This document shows positions 48,142 to 56,321 of a stretch of DNA of 64,000 nucleotides, in pieces. Made by a program: the position numbers and the translations under genes. The notes below the pieces were generated by a model. That model saw nothing but the letters and a program-made list of their open reading frames with translations. It made no database searches and was not told the DNA's origin. The DNA is from Desulfohalovibrio reitneri. GTDB lineage: Bacteria; Desulfobacterota; Desulfovibrionia; Desulfovibrionales; Desulfovibrionaceae. Positions within the stretch are counted from its first letter, which is position 1, and each line of letters starts with the position of its first letter. The stretch is from positions 633,001 through 697,000 of the forward strand of contig NZ_JOMJ01000003.1 of NCBI RefSeq assembly GCF_000711295.1, in the 5' to 3' direction.

Positions 48142-49041
48142 TCAATTGAGGATGTAGCGCATGGGGTTCACGGGCACCCCGTTGAGACGGACTTCGTAGT
48201 GCAGGTGTGGTCCGGTGGAGCGGCCCGTGTTGCCCACGTAGCCGATCAGCTCGCCCCGGGCCACTTCCTGGCCGCGCTTGACAGCGGAGCGGTGCAGGTG
48301 TGCGTACTTGGTGACCACCCCGGTGCCGTGATCAACTGCGATGGAGTTGCCGTACGAGCCGTCGCGACCGGTGAAGATGATTTTCCCCTTGGCCGGGGCG
48401 TAGATTGGCGTTCCCATGGGGCTGGAGATGTCCAGGCCCTTGTGGAACTCGCGTTTTCCGGTGAATGGGGAGGTGCGGTAGCCGAACTCCGAAGTGACCC
48501 AGCCCTCGGTGGGCCAAATGGACGGCGTGGCGGCCAGGATGTCGCGCTTGGAGCGGATGGACTGGATGAGCTCCTGCTGGCGGACCTCCTCCAGCCTGGC
48601 CTCGGTGGCCAGCTGCCGCAGGAAATTGTGCATGTTGCGGGCCAGCAATTCCTGGCGGTAGAGGGTCAGGTAGTTCTTGGAAAAGGTGTTGCCCTCGGGA
48701 CCACCAATGGGGCTGCTGTTCTGGTTCTGCTCCAGGTTGATCATCACCCGCAGTTTGGAGTCGAACGCCCGGATGCGGGAGATGTCCTTTTCCATGTGCT
48801 GTATCTTGCCGGCCAGGGAAAGCAGTTGCGTCTTTTGTTCGTGAACGGTTTTTTCGGCGTCGGCCAACTGTTTTTGGAGGCCGTCGTAATCCTGATAGTA
48901 CTGCCACAGATAGACGTTCCCGGCCGCCAGCGCGACGACGAGAAAGAACAACGCCGCGACCATCCAGGCTCTGCAGCGGAACTTGCGGCACTGACCGACC
49001 TCGTCCTTGAAGACGACGACATTGTATTTTTTGAAAAGCAT
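48142..49041 (-). CDS. membrane-anchored M23 family metallopeptidase
   Basis: 299 residues from ATG 49041 (MLFKKYNVVVFKD); a GTG two codons upstream (49047) is also possible and neither has a strong SD. A membrane helix lies at about 30-48, a coiled coil follows (about 50-90), and the C-terminal LytM domain has an apparently complete zinc site: H in FHKGLDISSP and HxH in GPHLHYEV. It probably cuts peptidoglycan cross-bridges in the periplasm. It lies 58 nt upstream of asnB. Confidence 0.9.
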   Translation of the reverse strand: MLFKKYNVVVFKDEVGQCRKFRCRAWMVAALFFLVVALAAGNVYLWQYYQDYDGLQKQLADAEKTVHEQKTQLLSLAGKIQHMEKDISRIRAFDSKLRVMINLEQNQNSSPIGGPEGNTFSKNYLTLYRQELLARNMHNFLRQLATEARLEEVRQQELIQSIRSKRDILAATPSIWPTEGWVTSEFGYRTSPFTGKREFHKGLDISSPMGTPIYAPAKGKIIFTGRDGSYGNSIAVDHGTGVVTKYAHLHRSAVKRGQEVARGELIGYVGNTGRSTGPHLHYEVRLNGVPVNPMRYILN

Positions 49042-49086
49042 AGCCACCCAATTGTGGGCTGAACGTGCGACCTTGCTGAACCGGTC

Positions 49087-49851
49087 TTACTCGGTGCTTG
49101 AGTAGGGCATCGCCGCATCCAAGTCAAGCTGCCAGCCGGTCAGGGCCCGGAAAATCCGCTTCTTGCGCACAGGGTCGCCCAGGAATCCGTCCCGCATCAT
49201 TTCCTCCATCTCGGTGCGTTTGGTCTGTCCGGCGGAGGGGCAGGGATTGGCGAAAACAGGGAGATTCCAGGCTCGTGCGGCCCGTTCCACCCGTTTTTTC
49301 TCCAGCAGCAGCAGGGGGCGGACGAGGGTCAGTTCGCCGCCGAAGTAGTCCGCCTTGGCGGTGAGCCCCTCGACCTTGCCGGTCTGGGTCATGTTCAGAA
49401 AGAAGGTGGATACCAGGTCGTCCGCGGTATGGCCCAGGGCCAGGTGGGTCAGGCCGTAGTGCGAGCACAGTTCGAAGAGCTTTTTGCGGCGGAACCAGGC
49501 GCAGTAGAAACAGGGGGAATTCTTGCGGTTTTCCTCGGAGTGCGCCTTGGGGCCGATGCCCATCATCTCCACGTGCAGGGCCACGCCGTTGTCCGCGCAC
49601 CAGCTGGACAAGGGGCGGTGGTTGTCCGCTTCGAAGCCGGGGTTGACGTGCAGGGCCATGACTTCGAAGGGGAAGGGCACCACTCGCTTGCGCAGCAGAA
49701 GCCCCTGCAGGAGTGTGAAGGAGTCCGCTCCTCCCGAGGCGGCCACGCCGATGCGCGCCCCCGGACGAAGCTGGCCGGTGCGCTGCATGAGCTTGCCCAT
49801 GGTGGAGAGGACGCTCTTCTGGACGAAATTGAATCGCTTGCGGAAACTCAC
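49087..49851 (-). CDS. ttcA: TtcA-like tRNA 2-thiocytidine synthase (PP-loop ATPase)
   Basis: 254 residues from a GTG start at 49851. The PP-loop SGGADS is at 39-44. The three [4Fe-4S] cysteines of TtcA-type enzymes are at C114, C117 (SPCFYC) and C204 (NPCPSAGQ). LGHTADDLVSTFF is the second conserved motif. These features indicate 2-thiolation of tRNA, probably C32. The SD for the GTG is weak and a start at the internal ATG (residue 18) cannot be excluded. It is divergent from the ABC module at 50000. Confidence 0.85.
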   Translation of the reverse strand: MSFRKRFNFVQKSVLSTMGKLMQRTGQLRPGARIGVAASGGADSFTLLQGLLLRKRVVPFPFEVMALHVNPGFEADNHRPLSSWCADNGVALHVEMMGIGPKAHSEENRKNSPCFYCAWFRRKKLFELCSHYGLTHLALGHTADDLVSTFFLNMTQTGKVEGLTAKADYFGGELTLVRPLLLLEKKRVERAARAWNLPVFANPCPSAGQTKRTEMEEMMRDGFLGDPVRKKRIFRALTGWQLDLDAAMPYSSTE

Positions 49852-49921: not shown

Positions 49922-49999
49922 ATTGTGTTCCTCGCCGTCGGCTGCGGGTAGCTCCCGTGGGACCGGCGGCGTCTCTCGTTTTCTCCACGCGTGGCAACC

Positions 50000-50947
50000 A
50001 TGCTTGAAGTACGCCATCTCAGCCATTCCTTCGGCGAGACGCAGGTGCTCTTCGACCTCTCCTTCACCCTGAGGGAGGGGGAGATCCTTGGATTCCTCGG
50101 CCCAAACGGCGCGGGCAAGTCCACCACCATGCGCATCGTCACCGGCTTTCTCACACCCACCTCGGGAGAGGTGCGCTTCAACGGCCACGACGTAAGGCGC
50201 GAACCCATGGCTCTGCGCCGCCAGCTCGGCTACCTGCCCGAGAATGTGCCCCTGTATCCGGAACTCAAGGTCCGGGAATTCCTGAGTTGGGCCGCGAGGG
50301 TGAAGCAGGCCGCCGACCCTGCGGGACAGGTGGCCGAGGTCGCCGAGCGGTGCGGCCTGGAGCCGGTCATGGGCAAGCTGGTGGGACATCTTTCCCGGGG
50401 GTTTCGGCAGCGGGTGGGGCTGGCTCAGGCCATTCTGGGCGATTCCCGCCTGCTGGTGCTGGACGAGCCCACGGCCGCCATGGACCCGGCCCAGATCGTG
50501 GCCATCCGGCAGCTTATCAAGGATCTTGGCCGCTCCCGCACCATCCTGCTTTCCACCCACATCCTGCCCGAGGTGGAACGCACTTGCGACCGCGTTCTCA
50601 TCCTGGACCAGGGCCGCATTTTGGCCGAGGACACTCCCGCCGGGCTGACAGACCGCTTCGGCGGCCGTGGAGTCTTTCTGCTGCGGGTGGACCCCGGGGT
50701 GGAGACCGCGGCCGAGGTGGAGGCCGCCCTGGCCGAAGCGCCGGGCGTCACCTCGACAAGCCGGCTGGATGACGGGCTTGGAGGTGTGCTCGTGCGTTTG
50801 GAGACGGAGTCCGGCCGGGATCGTCGGGCGGAGTTGACTTCCCTGGCCTTCGGACGTGGGTGGTCCGTACTCGAGTTCCGGCCCGCGCACGCCTCCCTGG
50901 AGGACGCCTTCGTCTCCATCGTCCGCCGTGAGGAGTTTGCGGCGTGA
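50000..50947 (+). CDS. ABC transporter ATP-binding protein (GldA-like)
   Basis: 315 residues from ATG 50000 (MLEVRHLSHSF); a GTG nine bases upstream is possible. Walker A is GPNGAGKSTT, the signature is LSRGFRQRVGLAQ (instead of LSGGQ, as in GldA/NosF-type ATPases), and Walker B is LLVLDEPTAAMDP. A C-terminal ~95-residue extension is typical of ABC-2 exporters. It should power the membrane gene that overlaps it by 4 nt. Substrate unknown. Confidence 0.88.
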   Translation: MLEVRHLSHSFGETQVLFDLSFTLREGEILGFLGPNGAGKSTTMRIVTGFLTPTSGEVRFNGHDVRREPMALRRQLGYLPENVPLYPELKVREFLSWAARVKQAADPAGQVAEVAERCGLEPVMGKLVGHLSRGFRQRVGLAQAILGDSRLLVLDEPTAAMDPAQIVAIRQLIKDLGRSRTILLSTHILPEVERTCDRVLILDQGRILAEDTPAGLTDRFGGRGVFLLRVDPGVETAAEVEAALAEAPGVTSTSRLDDGLGGVLVRLETESGRDRRAELTSLAFGRGWSVLEFRPAHASLEDAFVSIVRREEFAA

Positions 50948-51720
50948 TGCGCCAGATTCTTCTCGTGGCCAGAAAGGACCTGGCCGTCTTTTTCCGATCG
51001 CCCCTTGCCTACGCGGTGCTGACCTGCTTCCTGCTCATCGCCGGGTATATCTTCGCCTCCACCATCAACCTCTATCAACTGGTCAGCGTGCAGCTCATGC
51101 AGTCCCCGAGGGCGGCGGACGTGACCATGCAGGACCTGGTGGTGGCACCCTACCTGCAAAACGCGGCCGTGGTTTTCCTCTTTCTGCTGCCGCTGCTCAC
51201 CATGCGCGGCTACGCCGAGGAAAAACGCAACGGCACCTTCGAACTGCTGCTCAGCTACCCTCTCGGCGAGGGGCGCATCGCCATGGGCAAGCTGCTGGCC
51301 CTGTGCGTCTTTCTGTGGACGGCCATCGCCCTCTCCGCATTCGGCCCGCTGCTGCTCATGGTCTACGCCACTCCGGAGCCGTTGCCCATGCTGGTCGGCT
51401 ATCTGGGGCTGGCCCTGTTGGCCACGGCCTTCGCTTCCCTCGGGCTGTTCATCTCCTCTCTCACCTCGGGGCAGGTGGTGGCCGGGGTGACGACTTTCAT
51501 GATCCTGTTGGTCCTGTGGCTTCTTTCCTGGGTGCGCGAACTGGTGCCCCAGTCGGTTCGTCCGGTGGTTGAGGCCATCTCGCCCATGGACCACTTCAGC
51601 CCCTTCAGCCAAGGCGTGCTGACCCTGCACGACGCCCTCTACTTCCTGCTCTTGGCCGCGGCCTTTTTCTGGCTGACAGTGCTTTCCCTGGAGAACCAGC
51701 GGTGGCGGAGGGCGACATGA
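50944..51720 (+). CDS. ABC-2 type permease (GldF-like)
   Basis: 258 residues with about six membrane helices. It starts at GTG 50944 (8 nt from AGGAG) or the adjoining ATG at 50947. Features are ARKDLAVFFRSPLAYAVL at the N-terminus, TMRGYAEEKRNGTFELLLSYP in the first cytoplasmic loop, and SPFSQGVL near the end. These match GldF, a permease subunit linked to gliding in Bacteroidetes but also found in non-gliding bacteria. It overlaps both neighbours as GTGA/ATGA, so the three genes are a tight unit. Confidence 0.87.
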   Translation: MMRQILLVARKDLAVFFRSPLAYAVLTCFLLIAGYIFASTINLYQLVSVQLMQSPRAADVTMQDLVVAPYLQNAAVVFLFLLPLLTMRGYAEEKRNGTFELLLSYPLGEGRIAMGKLLALCVFLWTAIALSAFGPLLLMVYATPEPLPMLVGYLGLALLATAFASLGLFISSLTSGQVVAGVTTFMILLVLWLLSWVRELVPQSVRPVVEAISPMDHFSPFSQGVLTLHDALYFLLLAAAFFWLTVLSLENQRWRRAT

Positions 51721-53051
51721 AGGGTGGCCGCCTTGCCCTGAGCTTGATAACCGCCCTGGTGGGCTTGGCCCTTTTGGCAGGGCTGTACGTTGCCGGGGAG
51801 CGGCTCGACCTGCGCTGGGACTCGACCCGGGGCAAGCGCCATTCCCTCACGGAGCAAACCGGGCGGGTCCTCCGCGAGATGCCCCGCCCGGTGCACGTGA
51901 CTGCCTTCTACCGCCCCAGTGAACCCGGCAAACAGGCCGCCCAAGACCTGCTGGAACTGTACGCCGGGGCCTCGGACCGCTTCACCTTCGAATTTCTGGA
52001 CCCGGACCGGAGACTGGTGACGGCCCGCGAAATGGGCGTTACCCAGACCGGTACGCTTGTGGTTTCCTCCGGCGGCAAACGGGAGAAAATGGCCACTCCG
52101 GACGAGGAGAGGCTGACCAACGCCGTCATCCGTGTTTCCCAAGCCGGGTCGGTAGTGGTCTACGCTGTCGCCGGGCACGGCGAGGTGGTGCCGGATACGC
52201 CGGGGGAGGACGGCATGGGGCGGCTCGTCCAAGAGTTGTCGGACAAGGAGGTCCTGGTGGAGCCCCTTTTGCTGGGCGAAGCCGGGAAGGTGCCCGACGA
52301 CGCCACGGCGGTACTGGTGCTCGGACCGCGCAGGGATTTTCTGGACAGGGAACTCGCCATCCTTGACGGCTACGTGAAGGAGGGCGGCTCCCTGCTGGCC
52401 GCACTGAGCGCCGAGGGGGCGACCAATTTCTCGGACTGGCTGGAGAACACACTGGGTGTTCGGGCCGTGGACGGCATGGTGGTCGACCCGGTGGGAGAAC
52501 TTCTCGTGGGTGACGCCCTCATGGCCGTTGCCCAGGAGTATCCGGATTTCAAGGTGGCCGAAGAGTTCACCTTCATGACCCTGCTGCCCACCGCCCGGCC
52601 CCTGAGTTGGCGGGCTGGCGGCAAGGGGCTTGCCCGCTTGGCCCAAACAGGACCCGAAGCCTGGGCCGAACGGGACATGGACGCCCTCTCCCGGGCGGAA
52701 GCCGCCTTCGACGAGGGTGCAGACGCGCCCGGACCACTCTGGCTGGCGGCCACTGTGGTCAAGGAGCGGGAAGAGGGCGGCGAAACGCGGGCGGTCGTGG
52801 TTGGCGACCAGGACTTCCTGACCGACCGCTTCATTGGCCTGGGCGGCAACATGGACCTTGCCCTTGCCTCCCTGACCTGGCTCACCTCCAGCGAGAACCT
52901 GGTGCGCATCGAGACCGGCGGCGCGGCTGGCGAATTGGCCATGCTTTCTCCGGGAGCCGGAGACATCCTGACATGGCTGCCCGGAGCGGCCCTGCCCCTG
53001 ATGACGCTCATCGTGGGCGTCCTCGTTGCCTGGCGGCGCAAGAAAGGGTAA
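51717..53051 (+). CDS. GldG-like ABC-associated membrane protein
   Basis: 444 residues from ATG 51717, overlapping the permease stop by 4 nt. N-terminal membrane helix (about 6-28), a large periplasmic domain (about 30-415) with LDLRWDSTRGKRHSLTEQTGRVL typical of GldG, VYAVAGHGE and VLVLGPRRDFLDRELAILDGYVKEGGSLL, then a second helix near the C-terminus (TWLPGAALPLMTLIVGVLVAW). GldG-type proteins are thought to work with GldA and GldF; the cargo is unknown. Confidence 0.85.
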   Translation: MKGGRLALSLITALVGLALLAGLYVAGERLDLRWDSTRGKRHSLTEQTGRVLREMPRPVHVTAFYRPSEPGKQAAQDLLELYAGASDRFTFEFLDPDRRLVTAREMGVTQTGTLVVSSGGKREKMATPDEERLTNAVIRVSQAGSVVVYAVAGHGEVVPDTPGEDGMGRLVQELSDKEVLVEPLLLGEAGKVPDDATAVLVLGPRRDFLDRELAILDGYVKEGGSLLAALSAEGATNFSDWLENTLGVRAVDGMVVDPVGELLVGDALMAVAQEYPDFKVAEEFTFMTLLPTARPLSWRAGGKGLARLAQTGPEAWAERDMDALSRAEAAFDEGADAPGPLWLAATVVKEREEGGETRAVVVGDQDFLTDRFIGLGGNMDLALASLTWLTSSENLVRIETGGAAGELAMLSPGAGDILTWLPGAALPLMTLIVGVLVAWRRKKG

Positions 53052-53078
53052 TCGCCCACGAGACGGAGTTGACTGCGA

Positions 53079-54407
53079 GTGAAACGGCTGGCCCTCTTAT
53101 TTCTTTTGGCGACCCTTGTCTGGATCGGATTATCCGTGTGGCCCCCCCGGCAGGGGGAGCGCGCGGATGACGGTTTCGTCTGGCCCGATCTGAGCGAGGC
53201 CGACCTGTCCGGTTTCGTGGTGGAAAACGCCCGGGGGCGTTTCGAATGCGTCCGACAGGAGGGAGGATGGGCCATCCGTGTTCCCGGAGCGGGAGTCAAG
53301 CCACGGGCCAAGTCCGAGAAGGTTAAGGCGTTGCTGGACTTTTTGACCGAGAACAAGCCGCTGCGCATGGTGGGCACGCTGGGGGAATCCGAGCTTGACG
53401 AGTACGGTCTGCTGGAGCCCAGGGCCACGTTCACGGCGCACTCGCCCCTTTCCTGGGAACTGCGCGTGGGTGAGCGCAACCCCACCAGCGATGGCGTGTA
53501 CGCCCGCTCCAGCAGGGAGCCTGACAGCCTCCTGCTGTTGGACACGGAGTTCGCCATCGTTTTGGGACGCGGGGCGGACCATTATTTCGACAAAAACCTC
53601 TTCGCTTTTGACAGGGAGAAGGTGCGCGCCCTGCGCGGGCGCGGTCCTGACAGCGGGGCCTGGGAGCTGCGTCGCGGCGGGGAGGGCGATGGCTGGGTTT
53701 TTTCCGCGCCTGAAAAGGCCAAGGGGTGGCCCGTCTCCCAAACGGAGGTGGACTATTTTCTGCATACCCTGGGAACCATCAAGGCAGCCGAACTTCTGGT
53801 CGGCCGCGGGGAACCCGCAGGCGACCCCTCGCTGGTGGTGGAAGTGGAGCTGGCCGCCGACGGCGAGGAGGCCGTGCAGCGGCTGACGGCGTATCCCGAT
53901 GGCGGGAATGGGCCTCCCTGGCTTGGGGTCTCCACCAGCCAGCCCGTGCCGGCCGGCCTGGACGAGCAACGCTTCGAGCAGCTCAACCGCAGCGCCTTTT
54001 CCTTGCGCGACCGCAGGGTAATCACCCTGGATTTGTCCAGGGTGCAGCGCATGCGTCTGGATGGCGCCAGGGCGGACCTGCTGGCCCACAAGGGGGACTC
54101 GGTCTGGCGCGACAACCAGGGGGCGGAGATCGTGGGCCTGGACGTGCTCTTGTGGCGGCTGACGGATGTTCGCTACCAGCGCGAGCCGGTGGTTGAACTG
54201 CCGGAAGGTGCGGAGCGGGCCTTGACCTGGGAATTGATGGACGAAGAGGGTGAACGGCTTTTGAAGTTGGCCTTTTTCCGGGACAACGGCCTGGAGGAGG
54301 GCCAATACTGGCTCAAGAACGACAACACAGGAGAATTCTATCCGGTTTGCGGCGGGTTGCTCAAGGACCTCACCGAGAGGCTTCCCTCGCCCGGAACCGG
54401 GGAATGA
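53079..54407 (+). CDS. DUF4340 domain-containing protein
   Basis: 442 residues from a GTG start at 53079. An N-terminal membrane helix (VKRLALLFLLATLVWIGLSV) is followed by repeated beta-rich periplasmic units of the DUF4340 type: KALLDFLTENKPLRMVG, LGESELDEYGLLEP, LLLDTEFAIVLGRGADHYF. It lies 27 nt after the GldG-like gene. DUF4340 proteins often accompany GldFG-like ABC genes, so this is probably the fourth part of the same envelope system. Function unknown. Confidence 0.83.
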   Translation: MKRLALLFLLATLVWIGLSVWPPRQGERADDGFVWPDLSEADLSGFVVENARGRFECVRQEGGWAIRVPGAGVKPRAKSEKVKALLDFLTENKPLRMVGTLGESELDEYGLLEPRATFTAHSPLSWELRVGERNPTSDGVYARSSREPDSLLLLDTEFAIVLGRGADHYFDKNLFAFDREKVRALRGRGPDSGAWELRRGGEGDGWVFSAPEKAKGWPVSQTEVDYFLHTLGTIKAAELLVGRGEPAGDPSLVVEVELAADGEEAVQRLTAYPDGGNGPPWLGVSTSQPVPAGLDEQRFEQLNRSAFSLRDRRVITLDLSRVQRMRLDGARADLLAHKGDSVWRDNQGAEIVGLDVLLWRLTDVRYQREPVVELPEGAERALTWELMDEEGERLLKLAFFRDNGLEEGQYWLKNDNTGEFYPVCGGLLKDLTERLPSPGTGE

Positions 54408-54412
54408 TTCCG

Positions 54413-54447
54413 TCCGCCCTTGTCAGGACGAGAGGGCGGATTATCTT
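54413..54447 (+). terminator. hairpin between the DUF4340 gene and rpoZ, probable terminator
   Basis: A perfect 8-bp stem (TCCGCCCT / AGGGCGGA) with a 12-nt loop is followed by a weak T-rich tail (TTATCTT), six bases after the stop codon of the upstream gene. It may be a partial terminator allowing read-through to rpoZ. Confidence 0.5.
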
Positions 54448-54464: not shown

Positions 54465-54710
54465 ATGGCGCGCATCACGGTTGAAGATTGCCTGGAGCAG
54501 GTGGACAACCGCTTCCTCATCACGCAGATGGCCATCAAGCGGGTCCAGCAGTACCGCGAGGGGTACACCCCGCTTGTCGAAACCAAGAACAAGGAAGTCG
54601 TGGCCGCCCTGCGCGAGATCGCCTCGCGGAAGGTCTTTCCGGCCAGCGATATCCCGGAGGCGGGCATCTACAGCAGCGCCCCCAAAAAGGAAAACGAAGA
54701 AGCGCAATAA
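54465..54710 (+). CDS. rpoZ: RNA polymerase omega subunit
   Basis: 81 residues from ATG 54465, with AAAGGAG upstream. The family pattern is clear: MARITVEDCLEQVDNRFLIT, AIKRVQQYREG and EVVAALREIA. It helps assemble and stabilise RNA polymerase. The dnaJ start is 6 nt downstream, so the two genes are co-transcribed. Confidence 0.95.
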   Translation: MARITVEDCLEQVDNRFLITQMAIKRVQQYREGYTPLVETKNKEVVAALREIASRKVFPASDIPEAGIYSSAPKKENEEAQ

Positions 54711-54716
54711 TCAAGC

Positions 54717-55838
54717 ATGGCTTCCAAGCGCGACTACTACGAGGTTCTGGGCGTTTCCCGCGACGCGGGGGACGATGAGATCAAGCGGGCCTACCGTAAG
54801 ATGGCCTTCGAGTATCATCCGGACCGCAATCCGGACGATCCCGAGGCGGAGGTCAAGTTCAAGGAGGCGGCCGAGGCCTACGAGGTGCTGCGCGACCCGC
54901 AGAAGCGACAGACCTATGACCGCTTCGGCCACGAGGGCGTCGGCGGCATGGGCGGCGGTTTCCACTCCTCCGAGGACATTTTCAGCACCTTCTCGGACAT
55001 CTTCAGCGAGTTCTTCGGCTTTTCCGGCCGGGGCGGCGGACGCCGGCCCACCGCCGGGGCCGATTTGCGCTACAACCTCCGCCTTTCTTTCCGCGAAGCG
55101 GCCAAGGGTACCGAGGTAACGCTCAAGATACCCAAGAAAGTGGAATGCCCCGAGTGCGAAGGCACCGGCGCTCGCGACGGCGCGGAGCGCCAGACTTGCC
55201 AGCAGTGCGGCGGCGCCGGGGCGGTGCAGCAGGCCCAGGGGTTCTTCCGCATCGCCGTGACCTGCCCCAATTGCCAGGGCGAGGGCTCCATCGTGCGCGA
55301 CCCTTGTCCCAAGTGCATGGGCAGGCGCGTGGTGCAGGAAACTCGCGAACTGCAGGTCACCATCCCGCCGGGCGTGGACACCGGCTCGCGGCTGCGGCTG
55401 CGGGGCGAGGGCGAACCCGGCGAGAACGGAGGTCCTCCGGGCGACCTCTACGTGGTCATGTACGTGGAGGAGGACAAACTCTTCCGCCGCCAGGGTCAGG
55501 ACCTGGTGCTGACCAAGGAGATCGACGTGGTCCAGGCCATCCTGGGCGACAAGATCGACGTGGAGACCCTGGACGGAACAGTGCCCATGGAGATTCCCCG
55601 CGGCACCCAGCCCGGAGAGATCTTCCAACTGCGCGGCCTGGGGCTGCCCCATCCCAGCGGCGGCGGCGACGGCGACCTCCTGGTGGAGGTGGACGTGAGA
55701 ATCCCCAAAAAGATCAACAAGAAGCAGGAAGAGCTGCTGCGCGAGTTCGATCAGCTTGAGGAGGAAAAGCCCATGAGCCGGGTCAAGAAGTTCTTCGGCA
55801 AGAGCCCGAAAAAGGCCGCCGGGAGCGAGGAGGAATAG
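54717..55838 (+). CDS. dnaJ: chaperone protein DnaJ
   Basis: 373 residues. The J domain with YHPDRN (HPD motif) is at about 30-40, a short Gly/Phe region follows, and four zinc-finger repeats read CPECEGTG, CQQCGGAG, CPNCQGEG and CPKCMGRR. The last lacks the full CxGxG tail. Client-binding C-terminal domains follow. It stimulates DnaK; dnaK is not in the window. The upstream region shows no CIRCE-type repeat because the gene is internal to an rpoZ-led unit. Confidence 0.96.
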   Translation: MASKRDYYEVLGVSRDAGDDEIKRAYRKMAFEYHPDRNPDDPEAEVKFKEAAEAYEVLRDPQKRQTYDRFGHEGVGGMGGGFHSSEDIFSTFSDIFSEFFGFSGRGGGRRPTAGADLRYNLRLSFREAAKGTEVTLKIPKKVECPECEGTGARDGAERQTCQQCGGAGAVQQAQGFFRIAVTCPNCQGEGSIVRDPCPKCMGRRVVQETRELQVTIPPGVDTGSRLRLRGEGEPGENGGPPGDLYVVMYVEEDKLFRRQGQDLVLTKEIDVVQAILGDKIDVETLDGTVPMEIPRGTQPGEIFQLRGLGLPHPSGGGDGDLLVEVDVRIPKKINKKQEELLREFDQLEEEKPMSRVKKFFGKSPKKAAGSEEE

Positions 55839-55841
55839 CCC

Positions 55842-56321
55842 ATGAGCTCCGGGTTCACTCACCTGGACAGCGAAGGCCGGGCCCGAATGGTGGACGTGGG
55901 GGCCAAGGACGAAACCGAGCGCAGGGCCGTGGCCCGGGCCGTGGTCCGCATGGACCCGGAGACCTTCGGCCTGCTCTCCCGGCAAGCCCTGCCCAAGGGC
56001 GACGCCTTCAACACCGCTCGGCTTGCGGGCATCCAGGCGGCCAAGAAAACCGCCGACCTCATTCCCCTCTGCCACCCCCTGTCCCTGAGCTACGTGGACG
56101 TACGCTTCGCCCCGGACGAGGAGGCCGCCACCGTGGCCATCGAGGCCGAGGCGCGCCTGCGCGGCCGCACCGGGGTGGAGATGGAGGCCATGACCGCCGC
56201 CTCCGTGGCCGCCCTGGCCCTATATGACATGCTCAAGGCGGTGCAGAAGGACGTGGTCATCGAGCGCGTCCGGCTGGTCTCCAAAAGCGGCGGCAAGAGC
56301 GGCGAATTCACCGCCGAGTGA
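55842..56321 (+). CDS. moaC: cyclic pyranopterin monophosphate synthase
   Basis: 159 residues, 3 nt after dnaJ. Signature segments are [39 protein letters not shown] and [11 protein letters not shown], the last bearing the active-site Glu/Met region. It makes cPMP in the first stage of molybdopterin synthesis. Its coupling to dnaJ has no obvious functional reason. Confidence 0.96.

Follow-up and report, generated by a model that had tools for sequence, protein, structure and literature searches.

Gene content and predicted structures

The stretch of DNA analysed here (the window, 64,000 nucleotides) spans positions 633,001 to 697,000 of contig NZ_JOMJ01000003.1 of Desulfohalovibrio reitneri, a member of the Desulfovibrionaceae in the phylum Desulfobacterota. 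Four adjacent genes of the window, encoding an ATPase and a permease of the ATP-binding cassette (ABC) type, a GldG-like protein and a DUF4340 protein, make up a real, widespread and uncharacterised cell-envelope transporter set. Attention is given to the DUF4340 gene, which many genomes of the family keep at the same locus in the absence of GldG and GldF matches. The features of the set are listed below in window coordinates.

49991..50947, + strand: GldA-like ABC ATPase (318 residues); ABC_tran, PF00005, 3.2e-33; TIGR03522; sequence motifs
50944..51720, + strand: GldF-like ABC-2 permease (258 residues); ABC2_membrane_2, PF12679, 5.1e-10; TIGR03518
51717..53051, + strand: GldG-like protein; PF09822 and PF23357; AlphaFold model; no cysteine
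53079..54407, + strand: DUF4340 protein; PF14238, 1.3e-16; AlphaFold model
about 54413..54440, + strand: hairpin between the DUF4340 gene and rpoZ

The four open reading frames lie where an earlier, sequence-only reading had placed them. The GTGA overlap of the ATPase and permease genes, the ATGA overlap of the permease and GldG-like genes, and the 27 nucleotides preceding the DUF4340 gene are likewise found in the sequence; a GTG at 51702 is a possible alternative, upstream start of the GldG-like gene. The signals described at the edges of the set fared less well. A consensus scan lists no promoter-like site upstream of the ATPase gene, where a promoter had been suggested. The hairpin downstream of the DUF4340 gene is present, but is modest (z -2.26; 6 of 200 shuffles were as good), has no T run, and does not appear among the terminator-like sites listed. 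A promoter-like site identified by the scan at 54420-54447 overlaps the hairpin, 17 nucleotides 5' of rpoZ.

The Pfam matches of ATPase and permease each exceed the cut-off of their own family, and the ATPase carries Walker A, LSRG signature, Walker B and switch histidine, as an ABC ATPase should. Both ABC_transp_aux (PF09822; 3.9e-15, 56.3 bits against a gathering cut-off of 34.7) and DUF7088 (4e-11) are found above cut-off in the GldG-like protein, and DUF4340 (PF14238) scores 61.8 bits in the fourth product, against a gathering cut-off of 25.

AlphaFold models were built from alignments of 70 (GldG) and 61 (DUF4340) sequences. In the GldG model (predicted local distance difference test, pLDDT, 89.2) a transmembrane (TM) helix is followed by a thioredoxin-like DUF7088 domain, a GIFT domain and a C-terminal TM helix. 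The GldG profile, searched against solved structures, matched IFT52 and thioredoxin-like proteins, and the thioredoxin-like domain matched a protein disulfide oxidoreductase (8.5e-9). Residues from about 145 to 395 have the fold of a GIFT domain, and superpose on IFT52 (5fms_B; Z 24.3, root-mean-square deviation 2.4, 214 aligned residues) and OST48/WBP1 (Z 19-23), eukaryotic proteins having the fold alone in common with GldG; GH42 enzymes are matched at a Z of about 14. By sequence, Pfam IFT52_GIFT reaches 24.6 bits, below its cut-off of 27.2. The CXXC motif of active thioredoxins was not found, as the window protein contains no cysteine and columns of the 70-row alignment hold at most 4; thiol chemistry is therefore not expected.

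The DUF4340 model (pLDDT 93.3) opens with an N-terminal TM helix, after which the same order of strands and helices is predicted three times, in repeats of some 140 residues (about residues 40-172, 178-312 and 318-436; the borders are a division made from the secondary-structure elements listed for the model). In relatives the Pfam domain recurs at a spacing of about 414 nucleotides, as in genome G103 (starts at 247000, 247414 and 247828), consistent with a unit of some 138 residues whose copy number varies. A fold search with the DUF4340 model returned nothing at an E value of 0.001 or better among structures of the Protein Data Bank or viral models; the best rows of a second look (4r7r, Z 6.7; 4q0y, Z 4.6; YycH model 9a5d, Z 4.1) fall in an unspecific range, and were not used. 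Sequence searches of solved structures yielded nothing useful with the single GldG or DUF4340 proteins, and no match with the DUF4340 profile.

Linkage in the phylum and separation in the family

Of 198 genomes sampled in the phylum, 117 host DUF4340 and 123 PF09822. Linkage was counted at 104 DUF4340 gene clusters among the matches listed, derived from 94 of the 117 positive genomes. At 97 of these 104 loci a PF09822 gene lies directly upstream on the same strand, with start-to-start distances of 0.8-1.9 kb, the arrangement seen in the window. Such linkage of the GldG and DUF4340 families is far beyond chance. Five of the seven unlinked loci sit at contig ends (G136, G051, G201, G144, G146), and two are interior (G112 and the second G059 copy). 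A scan of named genomes with the permease profile confirmed 541 relatives. The best 80 of the 541 were analysed, mostly from Acidobacteria and Binatia, but also from Nitrospinota, other Deltaproteobacteria and a few Desulfovibrionales. All four genes occur in order at 61 of the 80 loci. Among the other 19, fifteen run into a contig end close to the gene that is missing, and at L103 DUF4340 goes unmatched. In three of the named genomes (L040, L046, L057) the permease match has neither a GldG nor a DUF4340 match beside it. The four families thus form a conserved gene set, and the random neighbourhoods that would have spoken against the sequence-only reading did not occur. The set is widespread, and the idea that it is special to this organism finds no support.

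A different picture emerged in the window's own family, sampled in 247 genomes (its own included) with a family DUF4340 profile, A1. DUF4340 of the type found at the window's locus resides in 97 genomes. The GldG profile is strongly matched in only eight of them, namely the window's genome, G010, G014, G015, G232, G233, G257 and G261, the last cut by a contig end. GldF profile matches exceed 370 bits in seven genomes, and the other matches listed score at most 45.2 bits, as expected of generic ABC-2 permeases, with the exception of G239 and G249 (95-111 bits), which are also weakly matched by the GldG profile. PF09822 was identified in nine of the 247 genomes, the seven transporter genomes plus G239 and G249, and in no orphan. 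We call orphans the DUF4340 proteins of the 89 genomes out of 97 in which neither GldG nor GldF is matched, and linked those accompanied by the transporter. DUF4340 must have a role of its own in these 89 genomes. G249 and G239 carry elsewhere a second type of gene set (L157:4875-9782; L158:6613-11164), in which GldF and GldG are partly or wholly fused, and DUF4340 is shorter and missed by profile A1; the figure of 97 therefore counts the locus type only. In 13 of the 97 genomes the profile match crosses one stop codon, most likely the gene's own end, and the open frames still measure at least 444 residues.

The locus is recognisable by its neighbours, which in the window are:

48142..49047, - strand: M23 peptidase (PF01551, 1.3e-37), divergent neighbour
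49087..49851, - strand: PP-loop (TtcA-like) protein (PF01171), divergent neighbour marking the locus
54465..54710, + strand: rpoZ, RNA polymerase omega (PF01192, 5.6e-15), conserved neighbour adjoining DUF4340 in family loci
54717..55838, + strand: dnaJ (PF00226, PF01556), conserved neighbour
55842..56321, + strand: moaC (PF01967), neighbour

At all 19 orphan loci examined by profile, rpoZ and dnaJ come after DUF4340, as in the window, and at 18 of them TtcA and M23 lie on the opposite side; these two matches are missing at L124. The neighbours are identical at transporter-linked loci, among them three that do not belong to the family (L031 and L032, of family code f2, and L039, titled Desulfonauticus), but there the three additional genes separate TtcA from DUF4340. 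This identity of context suggests an ancestral full set, from which three genes were lost. The possibility that genomes negative by profile hide a diverged DUF4340 at the locus was checked in 20 of them, one per genus, and rejected. In six, TtcA and rpoZ are adjacent, separated by 33-293 nucleotides with no open reading frame longer than 150 residues; the other 14 show no rpoZ match within the stretch examined. G249 and G239, with their second type of gene set at another site, are among the 20.

How often the transporter and DUF4340 parted was assessed on a tree of M23, TtcA, RpoZ, DnaJ and MoaC from 35 loci, leaving out loci where DnaJ was not matched and any second copy of a locus. Presence of the transporter requires four changes on this tree, and three changes are forced by well-supported branches; orphans do not form one clade. 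Closest to the window locus are L137 and L138, where transporter and DUF4340 are both missing from the locus, and L128, which has DUF4340 alone.

Orphan genes are under purifying selection. Their frames are full length, and nonsynonymous divergence (dN) is well below synonymous divergence (dS) in all seven orphan pairs compared by the NG86 method, though several dS values are near saturation. The values (dN, dS) are 0.058, 0.654 for L030/L133, whose frames begin some 37 residues ahead of the probable start; 0.189, 1.471 for L034/L123; 0.309, 2.091 for L117/L135; 0.353, 0.945 for L118/L136; 0.333, 1.084 for L030/L134; 0.324, 1.728 for L133/L134; and 0.656, 2.177 for L126/L132. The linked pair L036/L131 gave 0.322 and 1.053. 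Pfam DUF4340 is found above cut-off in four of five orphan proteins scanned, and L125 has no match. DUF4340 diverges faster than the neighbouring genes in linked and orphan groups alike. A faster evolution of orphans was considered and not seen, DUF4340 identity being similar in the two groups at like DnaJ identity.

Other features of the neighbourhood may be mentioned. Beside the module, the M23 and TtcA-like genes (48142-49851 in the window) persist as a mostly stable divergent pair across the family loci examined. Inspection of protein starts revealed rpoZ and/or dnaJ directly behind DUF4340 also at L161, L163 and L165, which belong to other families of the phylum; this gene order therefore seems to predate the window's family. 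A DUF4340 protein of 610 residues, with no GldG match nearby, is encoded outside the family at L159:5942-7774, and apparent groES and groEL genes lie a few hundred bases downstream.

Residue 15 and the three repeats

Linked and orphan proteins differ at one position of the predicted TM helix:

53121..53123, + strand: codon of Trp15, TM helix of the DUF4340 protein

Among the loci of the tree set, residue 15 is tryptophan in 10 of 10 linked proteins and in none of 19 orphans; with further genomes the count becomes 11 of 11 against 0 of 87, the latter being the 89 orphans minus G384 and G395. Orphans mostly have alanine, glycine, cysteine or valine instead. A looser measure was obtained by taking, in each protein, the 17-residue segment of highest hydrophobicity and looking for tryptophan or tyrosine among its final 13 residues. 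Either residue occurs in 60 of 61 alignment rows, representing permease-bearing loci mostly of other phyla, versus 22 of 87 orphans.

The repeats differ as well. Residues of repeat 1 that are invariant in linked proteins are kept in orphan clades at fractions of 0.29-0.60, against 0.75-1.0 for repeats 2 and 3. Of 45 linked pairs, 12 show a higher identity in repeat 3 than in repeat 1, but all pairs within the two large orphan clades do so (15/15 and 36/36), as do 108 of the 117 pairs formed across orphan clades; pairs in these counts are not independent of each other. The pattern is suggestive, on three to four independent comparisons of sequences, of a protein that may dock on the transporter by its helix and first repeat, and whose last repeat may work without it.

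Several observations weigh against this reading. As many as 150 of the 247 family genomes lack DUF4340 of the locus type, which is therefore dispensable in many. The tree is unrooted and by itself cannot separate loss from gain of the transporter, and the order of some deeper branches is not settled. The association with residue 15 amounts to three independent pairs on supported branches (four on the best tree), and although the three pairs have the same direction, a sign test gives p = 0.25, so small a number being unable to reach significance. When the residues scored are those shared by 90% of the linked set, the contrast among repeats weakens, with values of 0.53-0.62, 0.62-0.86 and 0.72-0.83 for repeats 1, 2 and 3. 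In orphan clade A repeat 3 exceeds repeat 1 in only one of three pairs. Finally, repeat 3 is already much better kept than repeat 1 in the linked pair L038/L122 (53.8 vs 31.6%), and the shift may precede the loss.

A possible mechanism and its alternatives

The explanation we favour, to which we give even chances as a whole, is that of an ABC machine with a periplasmic arm, in which DUF4340 both docks on the transporter and has a second job independent of it. The ATPase/permease pair, of the ABC-2 type, would use its ATP cycle to move the arm, plausibly made of the non-catalytic GldG-like protein and of the membrane-anchored DUF4340 repeat protein. The former would provide two binding modules, thioredoxin-like and GIFT, devoid of thiol chemistry; the latter would be a repeat rod. 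Such a machine may act in the assembly or maintenance of envelope components, and not in gliding. DUF4340 would contact the transporter through the face of the membrane helix exposing Trp15 and through the first repeat, while repeat 3 would reach another envelope partner, and be useful also where the transporter is missing. A second job of this kind would explain why several lineages of the family apparently dropped the three transporter genes and kept DUF4340 before rpoZ and dnaJ. The narrower proposal, that DUF4340 is two-faced, a transporter subunit by way of helix and repeat 1 and an independent player by way of its last repeat, and that the change from tryptophan to a small residue marks its release, is tentative, its chances falling just short of even. 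The sequence-only reading had suggested that the GldG-like and DUF4340 proteins could form an envelope complex. A role in the envelope is indeed the likeliest, but the four proteins need not act as one complex, given the 89 genomes with orphans.

Precedents for such a role come from relatives of the first three genes. The GldA-GldF-GldG transporter of Flavobacterium has the same components, an ATPase, an ABC-2 permease and GldG. In F. johnsoniae the tag of gldA (Fjoh_1516) is far from those of gldF and gldG (Fjoh_2722, Fjoh_2721) (PMC9127263), whereas in the window all genes are adjacent and accompanied by DUF4340. According to the same source, GldA and GldF are required for stable GldJ and/or GldK, and mutants of F. 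psychrophilum gldG are described as having an altered exoproteome and much reduced GldJ, GldK, GldN and SprT (PMC5682007). The nearest known role is thus the upkeep of envelope proteins. Archaeal arCOG01314 (DUF4350) is predicted to belong to a secretion or membrane-remodelling complex and, like the GldG-like protein, has a GldG-related ectodomain on a C-terminal helix; its partners are an AAA+ ATPase and vWA proteins instead of an ABC ATPase and DUF4340 (PMC5898192).

That the lineage carries the gliding or type IX secretion transporter proper is very improbable. The parts do resemble the gliding system, as the sequence-only reading had noted, the best NCBIfam matches of the first three products being GldA, GldF and GldG; all scores are far below the curated equivalog cut-offs (ATPase, TIGR03522, 270.9 bits against 402.6; permease, TIGR03518, 104.7 against 288.5; GldG-like protein, TIGR03521, 37.9 against 389.85, over residues 16-104 only), and largely refute the identification. 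Also against it, DUF4340 is an additional part, and the genome has five Flagellin_N matches, in agreement with the flagellated aspect attributed to the organism. The GldM profile has no match in the genome, but control genomes were equally silent. More credit, though still little, is due to a device analogous to FtsEX-EnvC, a precedent for an ABC complex controlling an M23 peptidase, since a divergent M23 gene stably adjoins the set in family loci. This gene persists, however, at loci with no match to either the transporter or DUF4340 (L137, L138, L140, L141, L150), where TtcA, rpoZ and dnaJ are retained to much the same degree; the site may thus simply be conserved.

Somewhat less improbable, yet unlikely, is a conventional exporter of four subunits, none of them, DUF4340 included, being optional, with orphan copies as decaying remnants. 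The tight GldG-family linkage in the phylum (97 of 104 loci among the matches listed) is what such an exporter would produce, and the 150 family genomes devoid of this DUF4340 look as if the gene were eventually lost after the transporter. Retention in 89 of 97 genomes with no GldG or GldF match is hard to reconcile with decay, as are the full-length frames and low dN relative to dS of the seven orphan pairs, the better conservation of repeat 3 in the large orphan clades, a divergence no faster than that of linked proteins, and the origin of orphans in three to four independent lineages. Of the alternatives, a transporter handling a lipid-linked or surface glycan has the best prospects, albeit poor ones. 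GIFT would then be a sugar-binding module, a view to which the fold matches with IFT52, OST48/WBP1 and GH42 enzymes lend support. IFT52 shares the fold, yet works in a protein train, and the profiles used, which cover part of the neighbouring genes, mark no glycan gene beside the module. A sugar-binding proposal for the GIFT domain of WBP1 is reported in a review (PMC7226087).

Searches of the open-access literature, judged mostly by title and beginning of the abstract, led us to recognise no functional study of DUF4340, none of a GldG-like system outside Bacteroidetes, and no report of DUF4340 surviving without a transporter; subscription journals were mostly uncovered. In Pseudomonas aeruginosa, PA4037-PA4039 are probably the ABC and GldG-like genes. 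PA4040 of the same organism is named DUF4340 (PMC8088628), and VSP_RS39600 of Verrucomicrobium spinosum is listed with an essential DUF4340 domain (PMC12283558); both belong to the same Pfam family by name, and the passages cited assign them no function.

DUF4340 and GldG-like families each occur in more than half of the phylum genomes sampled (117 and 123 of 198). As the family of D. reitneri separates DUF4340 from the transporter, an orphan gene can be deleted with no effect on a transporter, and the suspected contact is flagged by a single residue. If the two-faced nature of DUF4340 holds true, sequence alone would tell which DUF4340 proteins of the order are transporter subunits.

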